Shown: positions 5,101 through 29,588 of the stretch, one piece after another
Layout of the letters: each line of letters starts with the position of its first letter
How positions within the stretch are numbered: the first letter of the stretch is position 1
Virus record (IMG/VR): IMGVR_UViG_3300025767_000086
Location: 1-30,263 of that record
Direction: 5' to 3' (one strand)
Length of the DNA: 30,263 nucleotides
Source: a virus
The notes under the pieces: model-generated
The model's input: the letters and a program-made list of their open reading frames with translations, nothing else
The model's database searches: none
What the model was told of the DNA's origin: nothing
Translations under genes and position numbers: made by a program

Positions 5101-8100
5101 ATTAGTAATCCAAGCGCCAATTCCGTCGGATATAACTTGTGTAAAGTCATTAGACACTATACTATCGTTGCCGCCGTTGTGTAAATTTCCGTCAATTTTT
5201 TGTCCAATTGCAGCATTGCCAAATGTAGTTAACCCTTGAACATAAGGAGAACGTGTAATAATCCAAGTTGTAAAGTCATCTGGTCCCCAACCTGGATCAA
5301 GCGAAGCATAAGCACCTGCTGTCGGCCTACTTGTTCCGTAAACGCTAGGTGGAGTTAGGTCTCCGTTTAATCCAAACAATGAACAATCTCGTAAGCCAGT
5401 TGCGTCTCTCAAGTAGAACATGTCTTCTTCTTTACTACCAGTTACAGCGTTAGCATAGTAACGACCGATATAGCGAGACTTGTAGTTGCCAGGATATTTT
5501 AAATCATATTTTAATGCGTCAATATAAAGTCCAACGTCTCTTAGACACAGAGCACTATCGTATGTATAGTCATCCCAAATACTTCCCGATGAAGCAGTTG
5601 CAATTTGATTTGCTATCCAGGCACTAACTTCTGCTGTAATATATGCTCTATTACGCTCAAGTTGTAATAATGCATAATATACATTTTGATCTTCGCTTTG
5701 ACAAACACTACCGTCATTAGTTGCACCAAATATTATTGCGTCAATGATTCTTGAACTTGCTGTTAATCGGGTAATTGCTGTTGAGTCACTTGCAACATTT
5801 GCTATTGCTTCAGTGGTTAATGCATTTACTATAGCATCTCTAGTTATTGTTTTTTGATTTCCAATATAAACAGACAATGCAGGTTTTCTTAGATACGAAT
5901 GTGCAGCTTTAAGTGTACGCCAATTAGAGTTAAACATAAAGTCATATCTAACTGCTTTTAAGATTATTCCAAGATCTCTTATACATTTGGTTTGAAGATA
6001 TTTTGTTTTTGTTATTCCAGATTGTGTTGACGTTGCACTTGGGAACACTGTATTCGAAGCACCTAACCCGCTGTTACAACTTACTGTAATATTTTCAATA
6101 TTAACTATGTCAGCAGCTGATAACCCGTGAGTGCTTGTAGTTACTATTGCATAACCAGTTGCATTATCGTATACAAAATTACTTATTGTTAATACAGTTC
6201 CGTTTGCTTTAGTAACAGTTCCTCCGCTAACATATGTATGTACTAACGAATGTTTACCTACATATATACGGAATTGCGTTGTTGTTAACGATGTACTATC
6301 AACAGCCCAATCAGTATGCCAGGCAACAACATTTAAATCATCTATAACATTTTGAATAATAGTGTCTTGTGCTGCAACAAGTGCATCAGAAGCAGCAATT
6401 AGTGCTGTAGTTGTATTAACGCCGTTTGCTGGGGTTGGTTCTACTAATGTAGTTGAAACTCCAACAGCTTGTGGACCATTATCAATAATGTCAATAATAT
6501 CTTCAACAAGATTTGCAATTTGTGTCTGAGAGCCAACATTGCCTGTTAAAGTTTGTGTAACAAGTCCTTGCTGCGGACTCGCAATAGATACGTTTCCGGC
6601 AACACTCTGTGCTGTAGTTTTTAAAAAGTTGTTTGCAGCTATTGTTGCGGCTTTGATTGATGCTGGTATTTGGGGGATCGAATCGTCATCACCAGCAAAA
6701 TATGCAAGTCCAGTTGTAACTGATTGAGAATTTCCACCGTATGTTAAATCGTATACTAAAGCATCTAGTATATATCTTGCATCTCTACGAGTATCAGTTT
6801 TACCATAACGCAATGTAGGATATTCTGTTGCAAGATAAGATATAACTTCTTCAATAATAAATTTTGAATTTGCAATAATATTATCTTTTGCATTTTTTAA
6901 GAGTATACTATATCCAGTTGGATCTGTTACATATGCCGATGACATAGTATTTAATCTATAGTCAGTTTGATATTTCATCATATCTACTAAACTTTTAGCT
7001 GCAGTCGCTTGGGCATCAATTGCATGTGGCCAATCTCGAAATTGTGCTTCGTTATTACCTGATGTAGAAGTTACCTCAACTCCAGTAACAACATCTCCAA
7101 TTATTTCTGCAATTCTATCATACGTAGCAACTGTATTAGGTGTATCAGTTTCAGGCGTAGTAGGATTAGCTGCTATAATCTGTGTTGAACGTAGTTCTTC
7201 TCCATTGATAGCACAATATGCTGGAACAATAATAGGTAATACTTCGTAGTGCTTGCCAGTTGATACTCTAACCAATGTTTGATTCACAACTCTGTCAGGA
7301 ATACTACTAACAAGCCCTGTATCTATTGCATTAATAACGATATTAGCAAGTGTAGTTAATCTAGATAATGCTGTAGGTTCTGCTGTTATAGTAATGTTAA
7401 TATATTGGTCGATAATTGCAGTTGAGTCGTCTGTTACATTTTGATATAATGTTGCAGGAACAGTATTAGCTAATGCGTTACTTACAAGTGTAAGCATATA
7501 ATTATATGCCGCAACACTTTGGTCGCCCTCTGTTAGTAGATTTCCATATGCTCCAGTTCCGTTATTTTCTTCAGCTTTAGAAAACGGACCGTCCGCTAAT
7601 GCATTTAAGAATGTTTGTGCAGCAGCCCGAGTTTTTAAGTTGCCGCCGTGTGTCATATCGTGTGTAATTCTATCAAGTACAAAGCCTACATCGCGCTCAC
7701 ATTTTAGTGTATCGTATGCAAAATTTTCCCAGATACTTCCGCCAGTTGCATTTTCAACTTGATCTCTAATATATGATGTAACTTCTCGTTGTATAAACGA
7801 TCTATTAAGTTCTAATAAATGCTGTGCATTAGGAAATTTTGGTCCTTTTTCAATTTGTTCACAAGCATATCTAATTGTTTTAAATGGACGATCTAACGTG
7901 TTGCCACGTGTTGGATAAGGTAAATCGGCTCCATGTTCTGCCACGTAGTAAACATCTTCTACATCGTTTAAAAAATTCCAATTAGGTGTTCCGGCGCTTC
8001 CTACTGTTAACACTTGACCTTCAAGTCCAATTGGTAATCTTGTCGGAGCACTTCCGCTATAGTAAACTAAATCACCAATAGTTGTAAGAACACTAGATTC

Positions 8101-9612: not shown

Positions 9613-12600
9613 TTATTGCATGGTATCGTCAAATCCTTTAAACAATAGCATTTGTGAAACTATTGTCCCTGAAATTTCTGTTTGATTAACTGTTATATTT
9701 CCTTGGCCGTCGTCTGATTCAAAGTTTCCATTAAGTAGTACATCGGCATCTATATATAAATATTGCTGTGCTGAATTACTTAATTCATTAAATGCACCAC
9801 CAACAACAACTCTACCTGCTTGCAACTTATTAACTTCTAATGCTTCTCCACCAACACTTAACCTGTCTGCAAGGAATGTTGCAATAGCTCGTTGTGTCGG
9901 AATAACATTATTTGAATCTGCTGAAAAAGTTCCGTCAGTTGAGAATTCATTTACTACTGTACCGGATCCGCCTAATCTCACTCCACCAAGTGCAAGTTGT
10001 GACAGGCCTTCTAAGTTAAAAAACTGAGCACTAATTGTAACAATACCTGTTGCTTGCTGAATGCTAAACAGCTCACCTGTTCTAAAATTACCATCTTGGT
10101 CTGTACTTACATAATATACTCTACCACTGTTAGTTTCAAAAACTTCATTTTCAGGAGAAGCAACAAAATAAGAACCGCTTGAATACACTGATGGATAATT
10201 AGTGTCTACAAAATTTCCTGTTCCGATATCTAAGAAATCGTGTCCACTAATTCTACACTGACTATATTTTTCACGAAACGTAACTGCTGTACCGTGAAGA
10301 ACATTAAGATAAGTTTCTAGACTTGGACTAAGTGTGATCTGCACTAACCTAGTGTCGTTATTAGTTCCGTCATCACCTAAGTCTGTAATTATAACTCCAC
10401 TAAAAATAAACAAATCATCAATTGGTTCTGACACAACATCAAATACGCCAGCAATTTCTATTTGTACACCAGGTCCCGGAACAGATCTGACTCCTGTTAC
10501 TGTAAATATATTTTCATCTGGAATAAAATCTGCAAATCCGTCGCCACTTATTTTAATTGTACTAGTATTACTTCTATATCCAGCTCCTCTATTAATAAAA
10601 TCTGGCTGGCTTACAGAACCATTGCCTATTCTAAGTTCAATAGCAACTTCAGATGTAAAATTAGGATCAACTATTGCGAATCCTGGAGGAGTTATGTATC
10701 CGCTACCCGGATCCCATATTTTAACAGATTTAAAACTTCCTGTAGTAATATTTGCTCTAACTTTTGCTTGGGCGCCTACATTAACATGGTTAACCCCGGC
10801 TAGAGTTGTATTTGATGCAATTAATAGCCATTTATTAACACCTTGAACTTTCCCTACAGTCATTGCACTATATAGTTTTTCATCTGATAATGTTCTAAGT
10901 GTCCATATTAATCCATCTTCTGTAGTAGAAAATTGATTACTTAAATTATTAGTTCTTGCAACAAACAAGCCGTTGCCGTATTTCATATCAGAATATGTAA
11001 TAGCAGCATCTGCTGAAGTTCCAGCTGTCCAATTAATTCCATCAAAACTATATGCCGATGTGCCGTCAGCAGCTAGTATTAAAAATCTATTATTGCCATA
11101 TGCAACTGATGCAGTTGCCCAAACTTCATCAGGCAATGCTTGATCGTGTCTGACCCAAGTTTCACCATCAGTACTTGTTGCAGTTGCTCTATCATTTGAA
11201 CTTACAGCAAGATATTTACCTCTGCCGTAAGTAACATGTGACCATATACTAATAGTACTATCACCTACAGTATCATTTGGTATTGACCCTGAGGTCCAAG
11301 TTGTTCCGTTAGTACTTGATGCTACTACGTCTGTATCTTGTGCTACTAAAACAAATTTGCCTCCGCCAAATACACCGTCTGTCCAAGCTGCTCTTGTCGG
11401 AAGAGTTACTGATGACCAAACTTCGCCTGTTAAACTCGAAGCTGCACGTTTTTCGTTATTATCTGATATTGCAATAAATCTATTATTGCCACTGATTACT
11501 TTTTTATAAGTCGAAATAAACGGAAGACTAACTTCAAACCAATTTTGGCCATCATTACTCCATCTAGCATATTCGTCTTGAATTAATGAAACAAACCGAT
11601 TACTATAAGCACTTCCGTTAGTAGTAAACGTTAAAATAGTACTAGAACTATCGTCACTTACACTAGCAACTGTAATATATAAATCATTACTAGGCGAAGT
11701 ACCGCCTAGTAATGTACCTAATATTACAATTTTGTCACCAACGTCATATCCTGCCCCAGGATTTGTTAGAGTTACTGTATATAATGAGCCAGCTTTAACT
11801 ACTCTAAATCTAGCAGATACAGGACTATCGTCAAATGTGTCCCCTGAACCTACAGTATATACAATATCAAATTCTTCGCCAAGGGCAAAGTTGTTTCCAT
11901 TAGCATTGATAACAAGGTTAATAATACCTTCAGTGCCAGGAGATGTTGATAGTATTGTGGCAGTAGTGCCAGATGTTCTTCCTCGTATATTTAAAGGTAC
12001 TCCGATATTAATATCAAATGATGCTTGAATATTAATTGCTGTATCCGATACTAGTTCTGCTAGTGTAATACGATAAAGATCATCATCTTTCCATAGCCTA
12101 TAACTATTAGCAGTTAAATTACTATAAGTTGCCGTTGTGCCGCCGTATGCTGCGTCTACGTAATTTCTTTCTGTAAATACATTATATCCAGTAGAACTAA
12201 AGTCAGGTTGTGTAATAGTAACAAGAGGTTCAATTCTATATCTTGTTGTTTGATCCATTGCCGCAACAATAGGAGTACCAGGAATAACATGATCCCAGCC
12301 TGCTGCTAAGTCGCTGTCTCTAATTACAGTTACAACTTTTGATGCAAAAGTAAACGAATCAATACGCCCGTATTGACCAACACCTGTACCATCTGTGATA
12401 ATAATTCGCATTCCTGCAATTTCTGTCTCTTCTTGGGTTGTGTCATTTATACTTAATGTAATACTTGAAGTTGAATCTAAAGTTTCTTGGGCACTACCTT
12501 GACGCCCTAGATATCCGGCGCCGCCTTTGTTACTAGAGCCGTCGGGTGATGCTAGTCTAGCTTCAAACAATGCGCCGTCTCTAAAATCTGTAAATTCAAC

Positions 12601-15600
12601 TGTTGCATCGGCACCTGCTCCTACAATAGCCGCTGTTGCTTCAGTATATTCTTCACCTGTGTTGCTATATTCAAATATTAATACTTCATCAGTTGCACCT
12701 CCTGAAATTGCTTGTTCTACTGTTGCTTCATGATTTCTATTAAATACAAAAACTTCTTGAGGCACTTCTGTAGCGTCGACGCCGTCAGCAACTGATCCGT
12801 ATCTCCCGTAAGAGTTATTTCCATTAGTTGCACGTATAACGCCGCCATCTTCAGCAAAATATCCAATTTGACAATAGTAAGTAAATACAGATACTAGCTC
12901 TGCTCTACCATTATTAGTAATCCAGGCACCAATACCATCACTTAATACCTGCGTAAAGTCATTAGCTGTCATAGACTTATTACCGCCGTCGTGTAATGCC
13001 CCATCTACTTTCATACCTATACATCCAAATCCGGTATTTGTGACTCCTTGAATATAAGGCGATCGATTAATAATCCAGGTACGATTATCTTCTGGGCCCC
13101 AGCCTGGATCAAGGCTTACAAGTGCGCCGCCAGTTGGCTTTTGATAAAGTTCGAAGACTCCTGGAGGATTGAGAGTTCCTTGCAATCCTCCTGTTGTGCA
13201 ATCTCTTAAACCTGTAGTATCTCTTAAGAAGAAAAGACTATCTAACTGACTACCATTAACAGCATTAGTATATCTTCTAGCAGCAAGTATTGTACTGTAA
13301 TTTCCGCTATATTTTATATCTCGACTTAATCCTCTTATAAAAGAATGAATGTCATTTTTAATTTTTATTTTATCAAAAGTGATTGCTGGGTACTGGTTAG
13401 TTAAATATGCATATATTTCTTCTTGTAAAAAATTATCATTTAATAATAGACCTTCAGCTCCATTAAGCCTTGCTTGATCTATAGATTCTGTATTTGATCC
13501 TGTTATCGCTGGGTCAACATCTCCAGAAATAACTCTAAAGTCTATATAATTTTTAAAATCTGTTACTAGTTCTGTTAAACGATCACTAGTAGCGGTATCA
13601 GCTGCTGGATAATTATTACTAACTAAAACAGGGGCGCCAAGAAGGTCTGTTATAACTTTGCCGTTTTCGTCTAAGGACGGAACTTGCTGTTCATAAGACT
13701 GATCTGTAGTATTATTAGGCTGTTTGACGATTTGGTTACCTAATAATATATCAAATGTTATAGTACCAAGATATTCTAAATAATCTATAACATAATCATA
13801 ATCATTTTGATATCCTGGAAGTGCAGGCGCTGCTAGTATAGTAGTTGAACGGAGTTCATCGCCATTAACAGCACACCCTGCTGGGACAATAATAGGCCCA
13901 ATTTCTTCATACTTGCCTGTACCTACTCGTATAATAGTAGGATCTAGTGCGGTAAAATTATCTTCTATATATTCAGCTGCATAACGGATAGTTCTAAAAG
14001 GGTTTTCGTAAGTTCCTCTGCTAGTGGCATCGATGCCACTAAGCGATACATAGACAGTGTCACTTTCTTCAATTCTATCATTCCAAAAAACAGCTAAGTT
14101 GTCTGACACTGTTAGTAGCTGATCTTGAGCTCCGATTGATAATTTTGCATCACCAAATGTACTTTCGTCAAATATAGTACTACCATCGTCGTCAATTTCT
14201 CTAGACAATCCATAAGTTAGAAGATCGCCTTTTTCTTGTAAAGCAGCTGGGCTACCTGATTGAACTAATATATCCCAGTAATCGTACACATTGCCGTTAT
14301 CACCTGGATAATTTAATATACTCGATGTATGTTCAAAATTACAAGTATACGACGATCCTTTAAAATAAGCAACATCGTTTAAAGCATAAACATTTCCAAT
14401 AGCCCAAGTACTTTTAAAACTCTTTCCTGGAATAAATAATTCCCAGATACTAGTATCAATATAATCTAAAGTACTACCGTCTGTTTCGTCTCCTGCTATA
14501 TCTCTTAATGCTGTATATAAATTACCGCCTCGAGAAACAATATCACCAGTTTTGTATATTGTAGCTGCACTACTAACAGAAGTAAGAGCAACTTTTACCG
14601 TACCTATTGTAGCATCAACATTAGCATTATCTATTTCTTGTGCTGGAACTTTATTAATTGTAATTGTTGTAGAATCTAATATAGTTGTAATTTTTGTATT
14701 AGGTTGAAAAAATCCGCCGGCACCATTGACTTCAAGATTCATTCCTACTACTAGTTCAGTTGTAGATGGCACAGTGACAGTTGTCGGAGACCAAGTTCCT
14801 ACAAAATTAGTACCCCTAGAAACAATAATCCAATCAGGACTCGGAACGCCTTCGCCATTATAAGGTGATGAACCATAATTATTATTAATAGCGTAGTACA
14901 CAAATCCTCTATGACGTACAACATCACCTATATTATAGTAAGAAGAACTACTCCAGTTTCCGTCGTATTGAGTTCCAAATACTTCTACTATAAATTTAGT
15001 ATCATCTAATGCAGTAAGATTTGACGTATGTGTAGTTGTGCAGCGAAATACAGTACCGCCGTATTTTACTAGATCGTTTTTTCTGTATTCAGTATTAGAT
15101 GCCCAATCATTGCGAATTTCTATCCCGTCATGATAAATTTCCCAATCAGCAATATTTGCTTCTAATGTTGCACCTGCAGAGTTTGCTGTTATACATTTGT
15201 ATACTATACCGTTGTATTTTGCAAGTGCCCCGGGTCCGTATGTGGTGCCAGTAAGCCAATCAGTTACAAATCCAATATGTTGTGTGAACACGGCCCAATT
15301 AGCACTATTAGTTGCAAAGTTAGTTGCAGCATGTGGCACTGTACACACCCATAAAGAACCGTCATAATTAACAATATCACCTAAGTTATAATCAGTACCG
15401 TTTACCCAATCACCAATAAAGGTATTTCCTTCAGTCATTGTTTTCCACTTTGGCAAAGGTTGTGGAGGACTTGATCCAGGAAGTGTTGCTGTTAAATCTG
15501 TTCTAAACGCTGCGCTAGAAGTATGGGTTATAAGACACACATAACTGTTTCCATTAACTCGCACTATGTCATCTCTTCTATAGGCGGTCCCAGTTGCCCA

Positions 15601-15648
15601 GGTGCCTTTCCATGTATATCTAAATCGTTCTAACTTAAACTCTGCCAT
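9613..15648 (-). CDS. Giant modular tail fibre/adhesin B (2011 aa)
   Basis: It is a paralogue of fibre A with the same N-terminus (MAEFKLERFRYTWKGTW). Residues 1-460 hold seven CBM5/12-like W...Y...V...G...Y.C repeats; repeat 6 is split at about 285-360 by a module of the type T-E-L-V-V-G-M-x-L...T-K-I-T-T-I-L-D-S-T-T-I-T-I. A beta-helix start follows (VYVSLSGIDATSRGTYENPF, IIVPAGCAVNGDELRSTTI), then a single helical module at about 727-797. The beta-helix core is at 810-957 (DPGWGPEDN, SDGIGAWITNNGRAELVSVF). A seven-bladed S-x-D-G-x-x-W propeller spans about 1348-1628. The C-terminal region has GHDFLDIGTGNF, DQDGNFRTGELF and IPTQRAIATFLAD. AAGGAG precedes the ATG by a few bases and overlaps the stop of the previous gene. 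Carbohydrate or surface binding is inferred. Confidence 0.88.
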   Translation of the reverse strand: MAEFKLERFRYTWKGTWATGTAYRRDDIVRVNGNSYVCLITHTSSAAFRTDLTATLPGSSPPQPLPKWKTMTEGNTFIGDWVNGTDYNLGDIVNYDGSLWVCTVPHAATNFATNSANWAVFTQHIGFVTDWLTGTTYGPGALAKYNGIVYKCITANSAGATLEANIADWEIYHDGIEIRNDWASNTEYRKNDLVKYGGTVFRCTTTHTSNLTALDDTKFIVEVFGTQYDGNWSSSSYYNIGDVVRHRGFVYYAINNNYGSSPYNGEGVPSPDWIIVSRGTNFVGTWSPTTVTVPSTTELVVGMNLEVNGAGGFFQPNTKITTILDSTTITINKVPAQEIDNANVDATIGTVKVALTSVSSAATIYKTGDIVSRGGNLYTALRDIAGDETDGSTLDYIDTSIWELFIPGKSFKSTWAIGNVYALNDVAYFKGSSYTCNFEHTSSILNYPGDNGNVYDYWDILVQSGSPAALQEKGDLLTYGLSREIDDDGSTIFDESTFGDAKLSIGAQDQLLTVSDNLAVFWNDRIEESDTVYVSLSGIDATSRGTYENPFRTIRYAAEYIEDNFTALDPTIIRVGTGKYEEIGPIIVPAGCAVNGDELRSTTILAAPALPGYQNDYDYVIDYLEYLGTITFDILLGNQIVKQPNNTTDQSYEQQVPSLDENGKVITDLLGAPVLVSNNYPAADTATSDRLTELVTDFKNYIDFRVISGDVDPAITGSNTESIDQARLNGAEGLLLNDNFLQEEIYAYLTNQYPAITFDKIKIKNDIHSFIRGLSRDIKYSGNYSTILAARRYTNAVNGSQLDSLFFLRDTTGLRDCTTGGLQGTLNPPGVFELYQKPTGGALVSLDPGWGPEDNRTWIINRSPYIQGVTNTGFGCIGMKVDGALHDGGNKSMTANDFTQVLSDGIGAWITNNGRAELVSVFTYYCQIGYFAEDGGVIRATNGNNSYGRYGSVADGVDATEVPQEVFVFNRNHEATVEQAISGGATDEVLIFEYSNTGEEYTEATAAIVGAGADATVEFTDFRDGALFEARLASPDGSSNKGGAGYLGRQGSAQETLDSTSSITLSINDTTQEETEIAGMRIIITDGTGVGQYGRIDSFTFASKVVTVIRDSDLAAGWDHVIPGTPIVAAMDQTTRYRIEPLVTITQPDFSSTGYNVFTERNYVDAAYGGTTATYSNLTANSYRLWKDDDLYRITLAELVSDTAINIQASFDINIGVPLNIRGRTSGTTATILSTSPGTEGIINLVINANGNNFALGEEFDIVYTVGSGDTFDDSPVSARFRVVKAGSLYTVTLTNPGAGYDVGDKIVILGTLLGGTSPSNDLYITVASVSDDSSSTILTFTTNGSAYSNRFVSLIQDEYARWSNDGQNWFEVSLPFISTYKKVISGNNRFIAISDNNEKRAASSLTGEVWSSVTLPTRAAWTDGVFGGGKFVLVAQDTDVVASSTNGTTWTSGSIPNDTVGDSTISIWSHVTYGRGKYLAVSSNDRATATSTDGETWVRHDQALPDEVWATASVAYGNNRFLILAADGTSAYSFDGINWTAGTSADAAITYSDMKYGNGLFVARTNNLSNQFSTTEDGLIWTLRTLSDEKLYSAMTVGKVQGVNKWLLIASNTTLAGVNHVNVGAQAKVRANITTGSFKSVKIWDPGSGYITPPGFAIVDPNFTSEVAIELRIGNGSVSQPDFINRGAGYRSNTSTIKISGDGFADFIPDENIFTVTGVRSVPGPGVQIEIAGVFDVVSEPIDDLFIFSGVIITDLGDDGTNNDTRLVQITLSPSLETYLNVLHGTAVTFREKYSQCRISGHDFLDIGTGNFVDTNYPSVYSSGSYFVASPENEVFETNSGRVYYVSTDQDGNFRTGELFSIQQATGIVTISAQFFNLEGLSQLALGGVRLGGSGTVVNEFSTDGTFSADSNNVIPTQRAIATFLADRLSVGGEALEVNKLQAGRVVVGGAFNELSNSAQQYLYIDADVLLNGNFESDDGQGNITVNQTEISGTIVSQMLLFKGFDDTMQ
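14570..14795 (-). other. Foreign beta module nested inside CBM-like repeat 6 of fibre B
   Basis: Between the W (TNFVGTWSP) and the Y/G half (IYKTGDIVSRGGNLYTALRD) of repeat 6 lies a segment with TTELVVGMNLEVNGAGGF and TKITTILDSTTITINKVPA. This resembles a common phage fibre module. It sits in a different repeat from the nested module in fibre A. Confidence 0.6.
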
Positions 15649-16369: not shown

Positions 16370-19300
16370 TTATCCAAATATTAATACTTTTTCAATTGCA
16401 ATATCTTCTGCATCAGCAAAACTAATACCACCACTTGATCCTGCAACTGATACCCAATTAGTACCATCAAATAATTCGACCCTTTCATCTACAGTATGAT
16501 ATCTAATCATACCTGCACTTGATACAGGAGGTCTGTTAGTGTCGTCACCAATTGGTAACACGATTCCAGCTGTACCTCCGATTTCTACATATCCAGTTCC
16601 AGTACTTTGAAGTAATGTATTACTGCCAGAAACTGTATTTAAAATTACATTGTCTTTGATTGCAATGTTATCTAAAACTACTCTGCCAGTTCCATTAGCA
16701 CTTAGTACTAAGTCTGTGTCTGCTGTAATAGTACTTATCACATTTCCGTCAAGCTGTATATTATCTACTAATACCTTAGGTGCCGATAGTCGCTGCGAAG
16801 TAATATCAACAACAGTAGCATCTTCTATAATAAACCTAATAGTATTATCATTAGCACCTTCAGTTAATTCAGCTGTTACTCGTGTATTACCGTCTTGATC
16901 TTGAACTCCTTTTAGATTAATCCATCCAGTGTTGTTGTATCCTTCAAATCTTTCTAATTCAGTATTATATCTAATTTGTCCAGCTGCAGGAGTTGGACGT
17001 TCGCTTGTATTGCCTTTAGGAAGAACTAATGATCCAGTGCCAATAATATTTACTGTACCACTGCCTGGTTGCAAAATTAAATTGCTAGTAGATGTAATAG
17101 TACTATCATTAATTGAAATATCATCAATAATAATACTACCGGTTCCTGCAGAACGTAGTTCTAGATTACTATTTGATATAGTTGTTGTAATAAAATTATC
17201 ATCGATTAAAATATCACCGGTTGTAAAATTGTTAGCTTGTATAGTACCAATACTATCAATATTACCAACATTTAATGTACCATTAACGGTTAAATTATTA
17301 GATATAATAACATTATTATTAGGAATTAATATATTTCCTGTGCCATTTGCACGTAGTTCTAAATTTGTATTACTTGTAGTTGTTGTAATAAAATTATCAT
17401 CAACTAATATTTCTTCAAATTGGAATGCTCCACTTACATCTAAATTACCAAGTACATTTAAGTTACCAGTAATAGTAGTGTTACCTGTTTGGTTATAATT
17501 GCCTACATGAGTAACAGTTCCAGTAATATTTGTATTTGCAAGTACTGTGTTACCGTTAACTGTTAGCGCCTGTGTTATATCAACATTGTTACTAGGAATA
17601 ATTATTTTTCCAGATCCGTTTGCTCGCAAATCTAAATTAGTGTCTACTGATATTGTTTCAATAACGTTGTTATCAATAAGTATAGTATTATTCGTAAAGC
17701 TATCAGCTGTTATTACTCCTGTGCTAGTAATATCAACAGTAGTTGTTATTCCATTAATAGTAAGATCGTTATTTATTACAACATTATTATTAGGAATTAA
17801 TATATTTCCTGTGCCATTTGCACGTAGTTCTAAATTTGTATTACTTGTAGTTGTTGTAATAAAATTATCATCAACTAATATTTCTTCAAATTGTGCCGAT
17901 GCGTTAACTAGTAAATCTTGCAATACACTTATATCACCAATTACAGTAGTATTGCCTGTTTGATTTAATGAGCCATTAATTGTTATAGTTCCAGTAATAT
18001 TTGTATTTGCAAGAATAGACGTGCCATCAACAGTTAAATTATTGTTAATTTGTACATTATTGTTAGGAATTAATATCTCACCTGTGCCACTCGCTCGCAA
18101 TTCTAAATCAGCATTTGAGTCAATAGTTTCGATATAGTTGTCTCTAATTACAATTCCGTCAATATTTGCTTGATTAGTCCAAATGTTATTCCATCGTTTA
18201 CTAGGAACACCTAAACTATAAGTACTATTTAAATTTGGAACAAGGTCGCTATCAATTCCTGCTATAATCTGAATCGTGTCACTTACTTCGTTACCAATTG
18301 TAATATTTCCACCAATAGTAACATTGCCGGTTACATCTAAGTCTCCTGTAATATTTACATTGTTCAATAAATCAATCTGATCATTTGCTGAACTAAAGTT
18401 AATATTTCCACTTAAACTTTCAATAGTGTTTCCACTAATACGCAAATTACCAGTATCAATTTTTTCGCCGTTTATAACTGTATTATTGCCGCCTGTTGTA
18501 AGTGTTACTCCGTTTGTTATGTCAATGTTTAAATTACTTGCAGTAAAACTTACACTGCCATCTTCTTGATTAACATAAAACAATTCGCCAACTCTAAAGT
18601 CACCTTTGTGATCAACTGTGTTGTATCGAACTTGTGCTCCATTTAATTCAACTACTTCGTTAGCTTGTATAACAGTTGTTGGATCGTTGGTTATTTCTTT
18701 TCCGTTTCCAACATACGCTAAGTTATGTCCAATAGCATAGATAATAACTCCTGCGCCATCTCCGACTAATCCGTAGTTACCATAAACACTAGCACTACCA
18801 ATCATTCGTATTTCTGCGCCAAAATCTTTTAGATCATAGTTTAATATTGTTGTTGCTGTGCCTGTACCGCTAAATGTAATAGTTGCCGGAGTAGTATCAA
18901 ACCCGATTAAATTTTCATTTTTTCCATCTATAACAAGAATATCACCATTTATAACACTTTCAATATTTAATGGCCCAACTACTGTTGAACTATCACTTGA
19001 TGTAAATGTTACTGTCTGGCCAGCAGCCGGTGCTGTGCCTAATAATCCTCCAAGACGTATGCGAGTCTTACCTGCACCATACTTACCATCATTGCTATCA
19101 TATGCATGAAAACTTCTATTAGCAAAGTAAGTAAATGAATTTAGCCATTCAATGCGCACACCGTTTGTTGCTACAATCCCGTCTACTCCGGGAACAATAA
19201 ATGTTGCACTATGGAACAGCATACTTGCTTCTTTACTAGCAGCAGTTGCATAGGCGCCATCTATGTATGCACCTTTACCTGCATCGCCTGCATTAAACCC

Positions 19301-21796
19301 TCTTGGGTCTTCAACAGTAGTTGTACTACCTGAAGTAATTACAGTAACATTTCTTATGTAAGGACTGCGTGAAGTTACTGTATAATCTGTTGCAAAGCGA
19401 AATGCATAACCGTTATCAGGAAATGTTCTATTGCCGCCATTACAGCTAAATGTAAGATTTGATATGAATACATTGTTGCCTACTGTTGACAATCCACCTG
19501 TATGATATATTTCTATTACTCCGGTAGTTTCGTTGTAGCCTGCTCCTGTAATTGGATACTCTATATCGTCGATTGATATAGTTCCGCCACTAACATAACT
19601 GTGAGGCTGTGCTGTTATACCTACGTTAACCGTAGTATTACTTGTGCCTCCAGGTTTATTAAAAAAGTATGCTCTGCCAGTCCTGTTGGCATCGCCAAGA
19701 GCACCTGATATTATATAATCTCCTGATATTGCCACTGAACTGCCGAAGTAATCGTTCGTATCGACGTTACTAGATATTATTTTTTCTTGTAGAGTCCAAG
19801 TACTGCCGTTTGTAGTAAACACATAAGCACTGCCTGCTCTGCTACCAGCACCGTACTCATCTTCAAGAGCACCGATAACAACAGTGTCACCACTTATTGC
19901 CACTGAAGTGCCGAATTGGTCCTCAGCATGAGCGTCACTGGCTGTGAGTTTTTGCTGTTGAGTCCAAGTGCTGCCACTTCTAGTAAACACATAAGCACTA
20001 CCTGACTCAGTATTGTCTCCCCTTGCACCAATAACAACAGTGTCACTACTTATTGCCACTGAAGTGCCGAAGAAATCGCTAAACGTGCCGTCACTGGCTG
20101 TGAGTTTTTGTTGTTCAGTCCAGGTGCTGCCACTTCTAGTAAACACATAAGCACTACCTGAGTCATTGGCTGGGGCATTGTCTAGATACGCACCAATAAC
20201 AACAGTGTCACCACTTATTGCCGTCGAGACGCCGAATAAATCGAGATTAGCAGCGTCACTGGCTGTGAGTTTTTGTTGTTCAGTCCAGGTGCTGCCACTT
20301 CTAGTAAACACATAAGCACTACCTGAGCTACTGCCAACGTTATCATCACCTTGAGCACCAATTACAACCGTATCGCCGTCTATAGAGACGCTATAGCCAA
20401 AATTATCATATTCAGAACCATCACTAGCTGTGAGCTTTTGCTGTTCAGTCCAGGTGCTGCCACTTCTAGTAAACACATAAGCACTACCTGCTTCGCCACC
20501 AACAGGATATTCAGGAGCGCCTACTATAGCAGTGTCACCACTTATTGCTACTGAAGTGCCGAAGTAATTGAGAGTAGCAGCGTCACTGGCTGTGAGCTTT
20601 TGCTGTTCAGTCCAAGTTCCACCAGTACGTGTAAAAATATTTGCACTACCGGAGTTACTACCATCGTCACCATCTCTACGAGCGCCTACTATAGCAGTGT
20701 CACCACTTATTGCTACTGACCCGCCAAATTCGTCCAAGAAGGATGTAGTGCTGGACACAACATTTTGCTGTTCATTCCAAATAGGACTAGCACCTGCCGC
20801 AGTAACTTCATAAAAATTACCGCCACTTTGAAATCCAGTAATCATCAAGTCTTCAACTGTTGTTTCACCGTTAAGTAAAAATGCATCGTTGTAACGTGTT
20901 GCTGTTGTAGGACGAACAGTTACACTACGTAAACTTGAACCTTTAACTGTAACACCTACCGGAATTGTTAATGGAAATGCTTCTGTGTACTCCCCCGGAT
21001 TAATAAAAACAGTATCGCCTGCTGTTGCCGCACTTAATGCCTGTGTTATTGTAGCATACGGGTCTTGTATGTGATTACCGGTGTTAGAATCGTTGCCGTT
21101 TTCAGCAACATAATAGCTATTACCATTGCGAAATGTTAGATCAATGCCGTCAACTTCTAATGCTGTAGAGTTGATACTAGTTGCTACTAGATTGTTAACC
21201 CAAATATCATTCCATTCTTTACCGCCAGTATCAGGATTAGATCCCAGTGTATATGTATTATTAGTATCTGGAATAATATTACTTGCAACTTCAGCATTAA
21301 ATATAACATTATCAGTGTCTGCATCGCCAAGGGTGATATTTCCGTCTGCTGTAATATTGCCAGTGGCATGGATATCACCTTGAACATCCATATTACTATA
21401 AACTTCAACTACACCAGTTCCGTTTGGTCTAAATTCTAAATTAGCATTTGAATCGTTTGTACTAATGACATTGCCTTCAATATCAATACTGTCGATTCTT
21501 GCTTTATTTTGGTATACAACATTATCGAATGTACCTAGATTTAAATAGGGCTGTGTTGAACTAATAGTATTACCTACAATAGTAACATTGCCGAGATCAG
21601 CCTGCGTGTCCACTAGTAAATTTGTTGTTTTTGTTGTACCGGAAACTTCTAATTCGTGTGTAGGGGTTGTTGTTTTGATACCGATGCGCTGAGAAGTTAC
21701 ATCTAGATATAATAAGTCTGTCTCAAAAGCTAAATCAATTCCATTACGAATAAGATTCGACTTTAAGAGCGGACCGGATATGCGACCAACAGCCAT
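16370..21796 (-). CDS. Giant tail fibre C with inserted FG-GAP beta-propeller (1808 aa)
   Basis: The N-terminus MAVGRISGPLLKSNLIRNGI is shared with fibre D. A beta-helix start is at about 226-254 (YYVAENGNDSNTGNHIQDPY). An in-frame insert at about 330-795 carries seven FG-x-S-V-A-I-S-G-D-T-V-V-I-G-A repeats followed by GSAYVFTRSGSTWTEQQKL, then a small H-S-Y-V-S-G-G-T module. The beta-helix resumes with GYAFRFA and RSPYIRNVTVIT. A second insert lies near 905-988. DHKGDFRVGELF is at about 1061-1074. The rest is built of (V/I)-D-x-N-x-I-x-T...L-E-L-R-A-N-G-T-G...I-P-N-N repeats and two P-x-G-x-x-x-x-R-P...R-Y-(N/H)-T modules, ending AIEKVLIFG. AAGGAG precedes the ATG. It is a virion fibre by module content, and the propeller is a likely binding head. 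The ligand is unknown. Confidence 0.88.
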   Translation of the reverse strand: MAVGRISGPLLKSNLIRNGIDLAFETDLLYLDVTSQRIGIKTTTPTHELEVSGTTKTTNLLVDTQADLGNVTIVGNTISSTQPYLNLGTFDNVVYQNKARIDSIDIEGNVISTNDSNANLEFRPNGTGVVEVYSNMDVQGDIHATGNITADGNITLGDADTDNVIFNAEVASNIIPDTNNTYTLGSNPDTGGKEWNDIWVNNLVATSINSTALEVDGIDLTFRNGNSYYVAENGNDSNTGNHIQDPYATITQALSAATAGDTVFINPGEYTEAFPLTIPVGVTVKGSSLRSVTVRPTTATRYNDAFLLNGETTVEDLMITGFQSGGNFYEVTAAGASPIWNEQQNVVSSTTSFLDEFGGSVAISGDTAIVGARRDGDDGSNSGSANIFTRTGGTWTEQQKLTASDAATLNYFGTSVAISGDTAIVGAPEYPVGGEAGSAYVFTRSGSTWTEQQKLTASDGSEYDNFGYSVSIDGDTVVIGAQGDDNVGSSSGSAYVFTRSGSTWTEQQKLTASDAANLDLFGVSTAISGDTVVIGAYLDNAPANDSGSAYVFTRSGSTWTEQQKLTASDGTFSDFFGTSVAISSDTVVIGARGDNTESGSAYVFTRSGSTWTQQQKLTASDAHAEDQFGTSVAISGDTVVIGALEDEYGAGSRAGSAYVFTTNGSTWTLQEKIISSNVDTNDYFGSSVAISGDYIISGALGDANRTGRAYFFNKPGGTSNTTVNVGITAQPHSYVSGGTISIDDIEYPITGAGYNETTGVIEIYHTGGLSTVGNNVFISNLTFSCNGGNRTFPDNGYAFRFATDYTVTSRSPYIRNVTVITSGSTTTVEDPRGFNAGDAGKGAYIDGAYATAASKEASMLFHSATFIVPGVDGIVATNGVRIEWLNSFTYFANRSFHAYDSNDGKYGAGKTRIRLGGLLGTAPAAGQTVTFTSSDSSTVVGPLNIESVINGDILVIDGKNENLIGFDTTPATITFSGTGTATTILNYDLKDFGAEIRMIGSASVYGNYGLVGDGAGVIIYAIGHNLAYVGNGKEITNDPTTVIQANEVVELNGAQVRYNTVDHKGDFRVGELFYVNQEDGSVSFTASNLNIDITNGVTLTTGGNNTVINGEKIDTGNLRISGNTIESLSGNINFSSANDQIDLLNNVNITGDLDVTGNVTIGGNITIGNEVSDTIQIIAGIDSDLVPNLNSTYSLGVPSKRWNNIWTNQANIDGIVIRDNYIETIDSNADLELRASGTGEILIPNNNVQINNNLTVDGTSILANTNITGTITINGSLNQTGNTTVIGDISVLQDLLVNASAQFEEILVDDNFITTTTSNTNLELRANGTGNILIPNNNVVINNDLTINGITTTVDITSTGVITADSFTNNTILIDNNVIETISVDTNLDLRANGSGKIIIPSNNVDITQALTVNGNTVLANTNITGTVTHVGNYNQTGNTTITGNLNVLGNLDVSGAFQFEEILVDDNFITTTTSNTNLELRANGTGNILIPNNNVIISNNLTVNGTLNVGNIDSIGTIQANNFTTGDILIDDNFITTTISNSNLELRSAGTGSIIIDDISINDSTITSTSNLILQPGSGTVNIIGTGSLVLPKGNTSERPTPAAGQIRYNTELERFEGYNNTGWINLKGVQDQDGNTRVTAELTEGANDNTIRFIIEDATVVDITSQRLSAPKVLVDNIQLDGNVISTITADTDLVLSANGTGRVVLDNIAIKDNVILNTVSGSNTLLQSTGTGYVEIGGTAGIVLPIGDDTNRPPVSSAGMIRYHTVDERVELFDGTNWVSVAGSSGGISFADAEDIAIEKVLIFG
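17309..17422. repeat. Exact 114-bp direct repeat, copy 1 (within fibre C)
   Basis: This block is identical base for base to 17780-17893, 471 bases (157 codons) away. It encodes part of the FEEILVDDNFITTTTSN...ANGTG fibre repeat. Sequence outside the exact block, such as the CAGTAATATTTGTATTTGCA stretch near 17521 and 17992, keeps the same 471-base offset but has diverged elsewhere. Confidence 0.9.
17780..17893. repeat. Exact 114-bp direct repeat, copy 2 (within fibre C)
   Basis: Second copy of the block at 17309-17422, in the same orientation and reading frame. With the surrounding weaker similarity it marks a tandem duplication with a 157-residue period. Confidence 0.9.
19412..20809 (-). 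other. In-frame insertion in fibre C carrying a seven-bladed FG-GAP propeller
   Basis: The flanks NFY (before) and GYAFRFA (after) are only seven residues apart in fibre D, but 466 residues apart here. The insert opens with an orphan strand (PIWNEQQNVVSS) that matches the outer strand of each blade (TWTEQQKLTAS), as expected for circular closure. It continues with seven blades (to about 19650) and ends with a HSYVSGGTI module. Confidence 0.85.
19793..20640. repeat. Tandem coding repeats of about 156-165 bp (propeller blades)
   Basis: A nearly identical block recurs near 19955, 20110, 20275, 20440 and, more diverged, 19795 and 20600; it includes GTGCTGCCACTTCTAGTAAA and CACATAAGCACTACCTGA on the plus strand. 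The blocks encode the YVFTRSGSTWTEQQKLTASD strand of successive FG-GAP blades. High DNA identity between blades points to recent duplication or gene conversion. Confidence 0.85.
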
Positions 21797-21927: not shown

Positions 21928-24900
21928 TTAACCGTAAATTAACGATTGTTGTATACTAAGATCTTCCATAACGTTTGATGAAATACTTTCAGATAGCCCA
22001 GCACTTGGTATCCACTTTGTTCCGTCATATGTTTCTAATACATCAGTATCGCTATTATGCCTAGTTAGACCAATTTGAGGTGCTGAAGGTCGTTCGGCTG
22101 TTGTGCCAGATGGAAATCTAACAGCATAATTACTATCAAACACTACAAGATGGGTACCAGTTCCGTTAAATTTAAAATTCTCATTTGTGCCGTTTGTATT
22201 AGTAATTATATTTCCATTAAATTTAAAATCATCAATAAGTGTATTTCTAGTGCTTGAGACTTCTAAATCTGCATTACTGACATTAGTTAAAATAGTATTT
22301 GAATTTATTAATATATCGTCAACTTGTAAGCTAGATAATTCAATTCCGTTAGAGTTAACTACTCCTACCTGTGCATTGTTAATTTGAAATGCTATAGTAT
22401 TGTTTGTTGGATGTGCTGTTAGACTTGTACGTCTATCATTAGAATATACTCCGCCAAATGATATAACATCATTACTTGTTGCTTCAAAAACATTATCAAA
22501 GGTATTAAATCGTATATCGCCGAGGTTAAGCGATCTTTCTGGTATTGTCCCAGTTGGGATTTTTAATGCTAGAGTACCTAATATAGTTAAGTTATTAGTA
22601 ACATTAAAAGTTATATCGTCTGATACTGTTTGTAGTACATTATCTTTAATGTGTATATCTTGTAAACCTACATACCCTGTACCACTTGCTCGTAGTTCTA
22701 AATTACTATTACTGTTTGTAGTACGTATAATATTATCAAAAATTTCTATGTCACTTGAACTGTTTAAATTTTCTATAGCAAAGGTATTATCAATATTAAT
22801 AGTTGGTGCATTTAAAGTACCAACAGTTAAATCATTAGATATCCCAGTGTTACTATTAGTAATTAATATATTTCCTGCGTTGTTAGCACGTAATTCTAAA
22901 TCAGTATTACTTGTAGTTGTAGTAATAACGTTACCGTCAATATTAATTTCTTCAAACTGTGTTTGGCTATTTACATCTAAGTCACTAGTAATTGTAAGAT
23001 CAATAGTACTATAATTTCCTGTTTGGGGTCTATTACCAACGTGTGTTACTATACCTGTAATATTAATGTCTTGTAGATCTGTGTTGTTACTAACTGTTAA
23101 GTTGTTACTTATTTGTACATCATTACTAGGAATAATAATTTTTCCACTAGCACGTAATTCTAAATCAGCATTTGAAATATCTGTAGTGATTACATTTGCA
23201 TTAATGTTAATAGTATTATTATCAAATGTAGATGCTTCGACTTGCTGAGCAACATTTATATCTGATGTAAGTGAAGATCCTTGAATATTAAAATCATTAT
23301 TTATAATAACATCTTGATTAGGTATTAGAACAATTCCAGTACTATTAGCACGTAATTCTAAATCAGTATTACTTGTAGTTGTAGTAATAACGTTACCGTC
23401 AATGTTAATTTCTTCAAACTGTACTTGTGATCCAACTGTTAAATTTTGGACTGTTAAATTAGTAGTACTATAATTTCCTGTTTGATTTCTATTACCAACG
23501 TGTGTTAATATACCTGTAATATTAATGTCTTGTAGATCTGTGTTATTACTAACTGTTAAATTATTGCCTGCACGAGTATTATTATTAGGAATTAATATCT
23601 CATTTGTGCCGCTTGCTTGCAATTCTAAATCAGCATTTGATACTGTAGTAGTAAGATAATTTTCTGTAAATTTAATATCAGCTAAATTTGCACGGTTAGT
23701 GTTAGTAAATAACCATTCTTTAGCAGCAGATCCTAAATTAAAAGTACTATCTTGATTTGGATTAATATTTTGATCAAAGTTAACATTAAAGTCAACTATA
23801 TCAGTAGATTGATTTCCTAGTAAATTAAGATCACCACTGAAACTTAAATCACCACTGATGTCTAAATCTTTATGTATATTAGTACTGTTTAAGTTTATTA
23901 GTCCACTTGCTGATATAATATTAATATCGCCCAATGTAGATAAAATAGTATTATTAGCAAGCCGTAAACTTCCAGTTTCAATTTTTTCACCGTCAATTAA
24001 TGTAATTTTGCCGTTAACGTCTTTAACAGTTAATCCATTTAATGCATCAACTTGTGCTTCAGTAATAACTAAACTTGTTTCACCTGTTTCTTGGTTAACA
24101 AAAAATTGTTCGCCAACTCTAAAATTACCATTATGGTCTGTTGTTTGATAATAAACTTTTCCGTTATTTAATTCTGTAATTTCTTGGCTTTGTATTACTC
24201 TACTAGTATCGTTATCTAAAAATTTACCTGTACCTATATAAGCTAAATTATGTTGAATTAAGTACATTAAACAATCAACGCCGTCGGCTACTGCGCCGTA
24301 ATTGCCATAAACATTTGCTGAGCCAATTGAGCGTATCTCTGCACCAAATTGTGTTGTTGACCCGTCTGAGCTTAAATGACCTGTCGATCCTCTTACTGCA
24401 TACATTCCTCTATTAGCAAAGTATGTAAAACTATTAAGCCATTCTACTCTAACACCGTTAGTCGTCGTAAGTGCATCTACTCCGGGAGTAATAAACGTTA
24501 CGCTATGGAATAACATACTTGCTTCGTTACTTGCACTGTTTACGCTTGCGCCATCAACTAACGCACCTTTACCTGCATCACCACTAGCAAATCCTCTTGG
24601 ATCACTAACACTTGTGGTTGTACCTTGTGTAATAACTGTTACGTTTTGTATATATGGACTTCTAGTACTTACAACAGTATTTGGTGCAAATCTAAATGCG
24701 TACCCGGTGTTTGTTCCACTGTTGTAATAAAAGTTTTTAATTGTTAAGTTTTGTACAGTTGATTCGCCATTAAGTAAAAACACATCATTACTTTGTGTAC
24801 TAGTATCTGGAGTAATGATTGTATTACGTGTATCATCGCCCATTACTGTAACATTACTAGGCACTGTTAACGGCAATTCTTCTTGATATTCTCCTGCGGA

Positions 24901-25713
24901 TATGCGAATAGTTACAGGCCCAGAAGTACTTCCATCTGATGCATCTAACGCCTTTTTTACTGTTTGAAACGGAGAAAATACTGAGTCGCCACTATTATTA
25001 TCATTGCCGTTAACACTAACGTAGAATGTATTTCCTAATTTTAAATTATAATCAAGATTGTCAACAATAATCGAAGTTGCACTAACTGATGTTCCGTTAA
25101 CTAAGTTGGTATATATTGCATTCCATTTAGTGTTTATAGATCCTAAATTATAAGTTCCGGAATCATTGGGTATAATGTCACTGTTTATATCAGTGTTAAA
25201 AATAACAGTGTCTTGATTTATGTCATCACCAAAAGTAATTGTGCCGTCAAAGGTAATATTTTGATTACTGTGTAAGTTGCCATATATTTCTAAATCTGAA
25301 AATATGTCAATTTTACCAGTTCCGTTAGGACGCAAATCAATATTTGAATTACTATCAAAACTAGATATAATATTATCGTTTATATTAATATTGTCAGTAC
25401 TAAGACCTGATAAATTAATTAGCTGCGATGCCGATAAATTAATATCACCGTTTAATGTGGTTATGTTATTTTGACTAACTGTAAGATTTGCAATATACGA
25501 AGTGTTAGTTGATATTAAATTAGTAGCATGTATTGTAGAATTTACGTCAAGTTCGTATCCAGCGGATCCTTTATTAACTCCTATTTTTCCGTTATTAACG
25601 TCTAAATATAATAACTGTGTTGATCCAGACGTGTTTCTAAAGGCAAGATCAATACCGTTACGTTCTAAATTTGCTGTTAATAATGGTCCGGAAATTCTAC
25701 CGACTTGTGACAT
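21928..25713 (-). CDS. Giant tail fibre D, uninterrupted paralogue of fibre C (1261 aa)
   Basis: The N-terminus MSQVGRISGPLLTANLERNG matches fibre C. A beta-helix start is at about 227-253 (FYVSVNGNDNNSGDSVFSPF), followed by NVTVMGDDTRNTIITPD, TIKNFYYNSGTNTGYAFRFA, RSPYIQNVTVITQG, DPRGFASGDAGKGALVDGA and SANVYGNYGAVADGVD. DHNGNFRVGEQFFVNQETG follows, then about six I-D-G-N-V-I-T-T-T-T-S-N...L-E-L-R-A-N repeats separated by HVGNRNQTGN segments. The C-terminus has two R-(F/H)-N-(T/S) modules and ends DLSIQQSLIYG. It lacks the FG-GAP insert of fibre C, so it shows the ancestral-like scaffold. A perfect TATAAATA box and AGGAG precede the ATG. Virion fibre function is inferred from modules and context. 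Confidence 0.88.
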   Translation of the reverse strand: MSQVGRISGPLLTANLERNGIDLAFRNTSGSTQLLYLDVNNGKIGVNKGSAGYELDVNSTIHATNLISTNTSYIANLTVSQNNITTLNGDINLSASQLINLSGLSTDNININDNIISSFDSNSNIDLRPNGTGKIDIFSDLEIYGNLHSNQNITFDGTITFGDDINQDTVIFNTDINSDIIPNDSGTYNLGSINTKWNAIYTNLVNGTSVSATSIIVDNLDYNLKLGNTFYVSVNGNDNNSGDSVFSPFQTVKKALDASDGSTSGPVTIRISAGEYQEELPLTVPSNVTVMGDDTRNTIITPDTSTQSNDVFLLNGESTVQNLTIKNFYYNSGTNTGYAFRFAPNTVVSTRSPYIQNVTVITQGTTTSVSDPRGFASGDAGKGALVDGASVNSASNEASMLFHSVTFITPGVDALTTTNGVRVEWLNSFTYFANRGMYAVRGSTGHLSSDGSTTQFGAEIRSIGSANVYGNYGAVADGVDCLMYLIQHNLAYIGTGKFLDNDTSRVIQSQEITELNNGKVYYQTTDHNGNFRVGEQFFVNQETGETSLVITEAQVDALNGLTVKDVNGKITLIDGEKIETGSLRLANNTILSTLGDINIISASGLINLNSTNIHKDLDISGDLSFSGDLNLLGNQSTDIVDFNVNFDQNINPNQDSTFNLGSAAKEWLFTNTNRANLADIKFTENYLTTTVSNADLELQASGTNEILIPNNNTRAGNNLTVSNNTDLQDINITGILTHVGNRNQTGNYSTTNLTVQNLTVGSQVQFEEINIDGNVITTTTSNTDLELRANSTGIVLIPNQDVIINNDFNIQGSSLTSDINVAQQVEASTFDNNTININANVITTDISNADLELRASGKIIIPSNDVQISNNLTVSNNTDLQDINITGIVTHVGNRPQTGNYSTIDLTITSDLDVNSQTQFEEINIDGNVITTTTSNTDLELRANNAGNILITNSNTGISNDLTVGTLNAPTINIDNTFAIENLNSSSDIEIFDNIIRTTNSNSNLELRASGTGYVGLQDIHIKDNVLQTVSDDITFNVTNNLTILGTLALKIPTGTIPERSLNLGDIRFNTFDNVFEATSNDVISFGGVYSNDRRTSLTAHPTNNTIAFQINNAQVGVVNSNGIELSSLQVDDILINSNTILTNVSNADLEVSSTRNTLIDDFKFNGNIITNTNGTNENFKFNGTGTHLVVFDSNYAVRFPSGTTAERPSAPQIGLTRHNSDTDVLETYDGTKWIPSAGLSESISSNVMEDLSIQQSLIYG
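22883..22960. repeat. 78-bp direct repeat, copy 1 (within fibre D)
   Basis: It matches 23345-23422 with a single mismatch, 462 bases (154 codons) away. A second matching block (ATTAATGTCTTGTAGATCTG near 23062 and 23522) keeps nearly the same offset, so the unit is a diverged tandem duplication. Confidence 0.85.
23345..23422. repeat. 78-bp direct repeat, copy 2 (within fibre D)
   Basis: Second copy of the block at 22883-22960, same orientation and frame. It encodes FEEINIDGNVITTTTSNTDL plus LRAN. Confidence 0.85.
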
Positions 25714-28406: not shown

Positions 28407-29588
28407 TTACTGGAAGCTTACATTAGCTGCATTAGTTGACAAGTCAACTTTAGCTAGATAATCAGCTGCGTTACCCAAAGATGACGCAGTGTTGTTTAGC
28501 TCAACATATCCGTAACGTGTCATAAATGATACGACTGGTTCGAATGATGCTGGATCTAGTACAACGCCTGAGCTCATTAGCGGGATGTATGGGCAATAGA
28601 ATGCCGCTGCATCTGATTCGCTTGAACCTTTGTAGCCGATTAGAACGTCTGATGCATCAGCAGCATATGTGTTAACATACACTTTCATTGCATTGTTTAA
28701 TGTACCAACCATTTTAGTGTTAGTTGGTGCTTCAAACGTACCTTCTGTTGTACGTGCAAATGCACTTGTAGTTGCAGACTGTAGGATAGTTAGTGCGAAT
28801 GGTGATACCACTGCCCAGTTACCTGCGCCTCTGCGTGTACGCTGTGCGATTTTGTTTGACTCACGATTGATTAGAACAGCTAAAGCAGCATGCTCGTCAC
28901 CTACGAATGTAGCAGTACCACTTACAGCAGCTTGGTTGTATGTTGAACCAGCTGTACCTGCAAGAGAAGTTAGACTTGCTAATACTTCTTGGTCAATCTC
29001 AGCAGTAATCTCTTGTGCAAGAGCTGCCATGATTTCTGCTTCAACATCAATACCGTGCATTGACTGTGCATCTTGTGCAGATTCAAAAGTCCAGCGAGCT
29101 GATAGCTTGCGTGATTTTGCTTCTACTGTTTGCTTCAAGATTTGAATGCTTAATCTGTTACCAGACTCACCTTCAAGTGCAGCAGTGTTATCTGCTCTAT
29201 TAGTAGTTGAGCTACCTGAATATGATTCAGCAATCTTAAATGGTGATAGTGCTTCTTCACCAGCTGTTGCACCACTTGCACCAGCGTTAAATGTGTCCGC
29301 ATAACGTACACGTAGTGTGTGGATTTGTCCCACAGGGCCTGTCATAGGCTGAACACCAACTAACTCGTTAGCAATAACGGTTGGCATTACACGTCTAATG
29401 ACTGGTAAAATAACACGGTTAAGTGTTGCGACATTGCCTGCTGACGTTGCACCTGCTGTTGCACTCTCTGACAAATACTTACGTGTATTTTCCAAAGTAG
29501 TTGCCATAACAGCTTTCTTAGTGCCAGTAAGGCCCTCAAGTAGTGCATTTTTTGTATCAGACCAGCGGCTTTCTAGTAGTTCCGACAT
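28407..29588 (-). CDS. 23: Major capsid protein, T4 gp23-like
   Basis: A 393-aa T4-type major head protein. Family signatures include NELVGVQPMTGPVGQIHTLR then VRYAD, EAKSRKLSARWTFESAQDAQ followed by MHGIDVEAEI and EIDQEVL, and near the C-terminus LIGYKGSSESDAAAFYCPYI with FMTRYGYVELN. T4 gp23 forms the hexameric head lattice and is matured by the gp21 protease, which cuts after (L/I)-x-E. Here LSE at residues 39-41 is a good cleavage site, leaving about 352 residues. The protein is shorter than T4 gp23 (521 aa), mainly before the GVQPM motif and in the segment after RYAD. AAGGAG precedes the ATG and overlaps the gp22 stop, and a strong terminator follows the gene. Confidence 0.96.
   Translation of the reverse strand: MSELLESRWSDTKNALLEGLTGTKKAVMATTLENTRKYLSESATAGATSAGNVATLNRVILPVIRRVMPTVIANELVGVQPMTGPVGQIHTLRVRYADTFNAGASGATAGEEALSPFKIAESYSGSSTTNRADNTAALEGESGNRLSIQILKQTVEAKSRKLSARWTFESAQDAQSMHGIDVEAEIMAALAQEITAEIDQEVLASLTSLAGTAGSTYNQAAVSGTATFVGDEHAALAVLINRESNKIAQRTRRGAGNWAVVSPFALTILQSATTSAFARTTEGTFEAPTNTKMVGTLNNAMKVYVNTYAADASDVLIGYKGSSESDAAAFYCPYIPLMSSGVVLDPASFEPVVSFMTRYGYVELNNTASSLGNAADYLAKVDLSTNAANVSFQ

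Follow-up and report, generated by a model that had tools for sequence, protein, structure and literature searches.

The gain of a whole binding domain is often invoked for host-range change in phages, and its intermediate states are seldom resolved. How such a gain may proceed is the question raised by fibre C, a gene of an IMG/VR virus record of 30,263 bases (analysed in full and called here the window), in which a large domain occupies a loop of the beta-helix that is short in the neighbouring fibre D. A cluster of T4-like structural genes lies on the minus strand of the window; in it, the major head protein is followed by small proteins and then by fibres D, C, B and A (Table 1). Fibre C matches PHROG 13163, "baseplate wedge subunit" (E=7e-105), and this family homology together with the position in a structural gene cluster places it among the structural fibres of that group; as such, it would be multimeric and virion-borne. 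Fibres C and D are 43-53% identical in three BLASTP blocks, the C-terminal part of C reaching 46% identity to D across 821 columns. Beta-helix proteins labelled "baseplate wedge initiator / gp7" in cyanophages (PHROG 13163; P-HM1, ACG-2014f) are 34-45% identical to D and C over part of the protein, but their domain make-up differs and the gp7 label is inherited from annotation. The major head protein is nearest to that of Vibrio phage 2.275.O (72%) and then to those of large T4-like proteobacterial phages (~68%); the resemblance of fibres C and D, in contrast, is to proteins of cyanophages.

The site lies in a DUF1565-type beta-helix (PF07602; 42.9 bits against a cut-off of 20.3), whose part upstream of the insertion is present in the fibre copies compared and whose first ~110 residues downstream are 53% identical to D. 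Between NFY (C327-329) and GYAFRFA (C796-802), fibre C has 466 residues (C330-795, window 20809..19412) and fibre D seven between its own NFY and GYAFRFA. These counts, given in the initial annotation, are exact, whereas the NFY of D is a chance match and no common anchor, since it aligns with G-F-Q of C (321-323). Measured after the conserved ...GF, the loop counts 472 residues in C and seven in D. Moreover, about 80 of the 466 residues stand outside the propeller and form a separate, older beta module, which is found propeller-free in 50 distinct fibre copies besides C, all homologues from viral contigs, with the pattern ...NVG....HTYVSGGT....FSCNGGNRTFPDNGYAFRFA. Its first strand (about C325-332) precedes the propeller and the remainder follows it. 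Aligned with these orthologues, the propeller replaces a turn of five to six residues in the first hairpin of the module: fibre C reads ...GGNFYEVT-[388 aa]-TTVNVG... where the orthologue L238 reads ...GGNYFEVT-GASAG-TTTVNVG.... In these alignments, the 466 residues of C comprise two insertions, one nested in the other: the module of about 80 residues, which is older, and the propeller placed within it later. Fibre D, taken at first for the preserved empty site, is a paralogue, and the empty site is seen instead in the C orthologues that have the module and lack the propeller.

Table 1. Features of the window on which the analysis relies, with positions counted from the first base of the window.
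Feature	Position	Strand	Description	Basis
Major head protein	28407..29588	minus	first gene in the cluster order	
Fibre D	21928..25713	minus	1261 aa; C paralogue in which this site lacks both module and propeller	BLASTP against C
Fibre C	16370..21796	minus	1808 aa; propeller-bearing structural protein of a T4-like virion, of fibre or baseplate type	ORF
Upstream anchor	20831..21133	minus	C222-322; DUF1565-type beta-helix before the insertion	PF07602, E=4.9e-11
Propeller insert	19637..20800	minus	about A333-N720 (~388 aa)	junction alignment with propeller-free orthologues
Seven FG-GAP_2 blades	19646..20782	minus	C339-717; ~52-56 aa each	PF14312, AlphaFold2, Foldseek
Rest of older module	19412..19636	minus	C721-795, of the ~80-aa beta module; ...NVGITAQPHSYVSGGT...FSCNGGNRTFPDN	50 propeller-free copies
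Downstream anchor	18797..19411	minus	C796-1000; beta-helix after the insertion	conserved in orthologues
Fibre B	9613-15648	minus	six Asp-box-like motifs, residues ~1362-1580	
Fibre A	2164-9564	minus	six Asp-box-like motifs, residues ~1842-2075	

A model of the insert in context (C216-1000) sets the module strands C326-336 and C718-724 directly beside the propeller; its global confidence is moderate (pTM 0.56), and it does not fix how the propeller is oriented on the shaft. No direct repeat or target-site duplication is evident at the junctions, the longest common word being seven bases. The GC content of the propeller (0.456) exceeds that of its flanks (0.377 and 0.336), a difference rejected as proof of recent import because it partly reflects amino-acid composition. 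A joint alignment of orthologues and propellers (A2) misplaced the orthologues onto the propeller and was discarded in favour of alignment A3. Further downstream, after FHAYDSNDG, another stretch of about 70 residues (C ~900-990, window 18827-19099) is absent from D, has a counterpart in many C orthologues and is probably another older insertion.

The identity of the later insert rests on repeats and on fold. Pfam FG-GAP_2 (PF14312), a repeated 49-position FG-x-S-V-A-I-S-G-D motif required to exceed the gathering score, matches fibre C in seven stretches (E=1e-126; 413.5 bits against a cut-off of 23), which excludes a chance match. Each blade passes the cut-off singly (51.8-88.4 bits), and the blades run unbroken from C339 to about C717, in agreement with the seven counted initially. 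The AlphaFold2 model of the propeller alone (C330-728), built from an alignment of 32 viral and bacterial relatives, has a pLDDT of 90.9, a pTM of 0.91 and 28 strands. These follow the order 1 + 6x4 + 3 and make up seven blades of four antiparallel strands, that is, the confident closed ring on which the initial annotation depended, inserted as it had proposed in a phage beta-helix fibre. The single strand at the start (C341-346) coincides with IWNEQQ(N); given this order and the full-ring fold matches, IWNEQQ would complete the last blade by velcro closure, as had been anticipated. Two side matches in the propeller, Pirin_C_2 and GXGXG, are judged to be chance or repeat artefacts.

In the fold search against the PDB (Foldseek), integrin alpha chains are the best matches (E 8e-18, TM 0.70-0.73), and a sequence-profile search also retrieves integrins. 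The integrin alpha propeller, which belongs to the FG-GAP/VCBS supercluster, has seven blades like that of C, and a DxDxDG metal loop between strands A and B is the defining motif of integrin and VCBS propellers (PMC8023676). No blade of the C propeller contains the pattern D-x-[DN]-x-[DN]-G, so that the link to integrins holds only at the level of fold and repeat family, and metal-coordinated ligand binding of the integrin kind is unsupported. The propeller of C is also just 16-20% identical to integrin alpha and has no I-domain or beta-chain partner. Judged by its motifs, it is a fold relative and not a calcium-binding VCBS/integrin member; the likeness initially drawn to integrins stands for the seven-bladed fold and fails for the calcium motif.

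The same matches bear on whether the ring could be an enzyme, a glycan-degrading domain mounted on the fibre in the manner of a tailspike. Phage tailspikes with propeller heads do exist, endosialidase being an example, and the long model gives weak fold matches to sialidases. However, the top fold and sequence matches are integrin alpha chains, which are non-enzymes, no hydrolase family is matched by Pfam, and FG-GAP_2 is a repeat family with no known active site. An enzymatic head is accordingly rated very unlikely.

The two remaining fibres of the cluster, A and B, contain S-x-D/N-x-G-x-x-W-like (Asp-box) motifs spaced by 40-52 residues, which suggests that each carries a different, six-bladed propeller; Pfam does not call a propeller in these Asp-box regions. 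The N-terminal parts of both fibres consist of tandem modules matching the chitin/cellulose-type carbohydrate-binding module CBM_5_12, in seven stretches each (E 1e-34 and 2e-40).

Was the propeller of C gained once, or is it one case among several? Scans that used other propellers, or the beta-helix region, as queries added further fibres. Among 166 distinct copies, collected partly via propeller searches so that the counts show independence and do not measure frequency, one (that of this phage, seen also in L008) has the propeller with the module at the C site, two (L126 and L156) have a propeller in the same loop with the module absent, and eight have a propeller before the beta-helix, one of the eight with a second near the C-terminus. 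On an unrooted tree of 168 fibre copies, made from the beta-helix only with inserts removed, parsimony requires at least nine changes of propeller state, three of them at the C site, and two changes of module state. Fibre D lies in a separate paralogue clade, and window C and L008 alone have the propeller in the module clade. L126 belongs to the C-type clade and L156 to the D-type clade, and the loop measures 2-7 residues in their nearest relatives. The fibre propellers themselves form at least three sequence groups: the EQQKLTASD type (C and L186, mutually just 45% identical), the LDNPNAYGTS type (most other fibre propellers, 61-79% identical) and L174. The single snapshot of domain gain first described therefore gives way to repeated change at several sites of this fibre family: related aquatic phages gained seven-bladed rings repeatedly and independently, at the same and at other fibre sites.

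Parsimony counts on an unrooted tree do not by themselves separate gain from loss, and the propeller could be ancestral; its absence from D and most relatives would then reflect loss, and D would not be a preserved empty site. However, among the 51 distinct module-bearing copies, only those of the window and of L008 carry the propeller, and the propellers at other sites, whose identity to that of C is 31-45%, come from different sequence groups. Loss would also require the same short turn to be restored in dozens of lineages. Propeller-free fibres thus exist among the homologues, and an insert shared by all D-like fibres, which would have spoken against gain, is not what is found. Ancestral loss is considered highly improbable, and repeated gain is retained.

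A chimera created during assembly, with an unrelated FG-GAP gene fused to a fibre gene, deserves attention because the window is a metagenomic virus contig and repeats favour misassembly. It is still harder to credit: a second contig of 50.7 kb (IMGVR 3300025701_000018) holds the same gene in one open frame with 99.9% nucleotide identity over 12.8 kb, and the same kind of insertion occurs at the same site in L126 and L156. The junction is accordingly treated as genuine. Between the window and L008, fibre C shows nine codon differences, too few for a test of diversifying selection; the amino-acid changes are two in the propeller and three in the neighbouring beta-helix.

A with/without pair cleaner than C and D is provided by L123 and L048, in which 1249 bases in the former, with the propeller, stand in place of 31 in the latter, the flanking DNA being 88% identical on the longer side of the insertion point and 89% on the shorter. 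Other arrangements are found in the same collection. One fibre (L114:2451-8187) has two LDNPNAYGTS-type rings, before the beta-helix and near the C-terminus, and one gene (L161:5550-8352) has two complete seven-bladed rings of different FG-GAP lineages in tandem. In some viral contigs (L118, L121, L135, L120 and L117), several adjoining genes in a row consist almost entirely of LDNPNAYGTS-type blades, with 14 or 21 blades per complete gene, that is, two or three rings.

As to origin, beyond this phage population the closest propellers, at 50-55% identity, occur in other phage genes and in one Cloacimonadota genome. A scan of 84,980 bacterial and archaeal genomes, which relied on exact short peptide patterns and detects close relatives only, found no donor; it returned three relatives, 43-54% identical, from Cloacimonadota, Planctomycetota and Pseudomonadales.

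From these elements, the following history is proposed. A small beta module would have been inserted first, in an ancestor common to most C orthologues; a complete seven-bladed FG-GAP_2 propeller would have entered the first hairpin turn of this module later, in the lineage of this phage. With the first strand lodged in the last blade, the ring would be closed with its two ends side by side, an arrangement that a hairpin turn could accommodate while the host fold stays intact. In the multimeric fibre, one ring per chain would project sideways from the shaft and act as an accessory lectin-like adhesion head contacting host surface glycans or glycoproteins, and related phages acquired such rings repeatedly and independently. 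The insert with its seven blades, the confident closed model, the empty site in the orthologues and the repeated gains are direct results, while multimeric display, exposure, binding, ligand and donor are drawn by inference; taken as a whole, this account is regarded as probable.

Within it, the binding role taken by itself is also rated likely. VCBS-type propellers, the group that includes FG-GAP/integrin, serve mostly in carbohydrate recognition or protein contacts (PMC9218822), which counts for an adhesion head, and repeated independent gain in one fibre family would fit selection for surface binding. The ring might instead be a neutral or structural passenger, a spacer, stabiliser or shield, tolerated since its ends meet and moved by recombination among repeat-rich phage genes. 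The insertions lie in tight hairpin turns, where they would disturb least, and many other viral proteins have similar runs of seven blades. The blades are also subject to active turnover: in C, the sharing of synonymous codons among blades 2, 4, 5 and 6 reaches 0.75-0.95 where ~0.45 is expected, which indicates recent duplication or conversion within the ring and fits the internal-blade amplification published for repetitive VCBS-type propellers (PMC9218822), while blades 1 and 7 share codons with other blades mostly near expectation (0.41-0.75). On the other hand, of the 101 complete blade runs in viral contigs, 66 have seven blades, eight have 14 and three have 21, so that closed seven-blade units appear to be what is kept. 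No fibre insertion observed disrupts the reading frame, propellers of different groups were acquired in independent events and, as a general argument, useless inserts of 1.2 kb are expected to be lost. A passenger is thus judged unlikely, and the adhesion head remains the preferred reading.

Several known systems share part of this architecture. The same repeat family occurs in the "FG-GAP repeat protein" of Vibrio phage nt-1 (45% identity to the C propeller), in the "virion structural protein" of cyanophages S-TIM66 (41%) and S-TIM5 (whose fold also matches) and in a giant structural protein of S-MbCM6 (33%). The nt-1 and S-TIM66 matches are separate genes of 400 aa without fibre parts, whereas the ring of C is inserted in a beta-helix fibre; in S-MbCM6, the blades lie in a gene of 7000 aa, with no match to the upstream or downstream beta-helix in the stretch read. 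The eBAP3 beta-propeller lectin modules of contractile-injection systems are likewise binding modules on tail fibres, but with collagen-like shafts, and that paper makes no mention of FG-GAP or integrin (PMC12923769). Highly repetitive FG-GAP/integrin propellers have been reported from archaea and bacteria (PMC9218822) and are found here in phage fibres: the LDNPNAYGTS-type propellers are similar, with median blade identities of 0.60-0.81, near the 60% cut-off, whereas the median of C is 0.54; its central blades bear signs of recent amplification. FG-GAP proteins annotated in phages and giant viruses, and domain gain in fibres, are already known. Two points are new as far as the literature searched shows, namely that a nested insertion is resolved and that one beta-helix fibre family acquired seven-bladed FG-GAP rings again and again: a search on FG-GAP and phage tail fibres, most subscription journals lying outside it, returned nothing relevant, and no previous description of domains entering a fibre beta-helix recurrently was found.

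In this fibre family, each stage can be seen, from the pre-insertion loop through the earlier module to the later propeller, together with independent replicates at the same site and near-isogenic pairs elsewhere, such as L123 and L048. Recently amplified FG-GAP propellers are thereby extended to phage fibres. More tentatively, and with somewhat less than even confidence, aquatic T4-like phages may draw on a common pool of self-contained seven-bladed FG-GAP propellers as interchangeable binding heads. These would be recombined into preferred hairpin turns of one beta-helix fibre family and undergo turnover of single blades, which could change host contact in one step. If the propellers bind host glycans, the with/without pairs would allow a direct test of the effect of one domain on adsorption.
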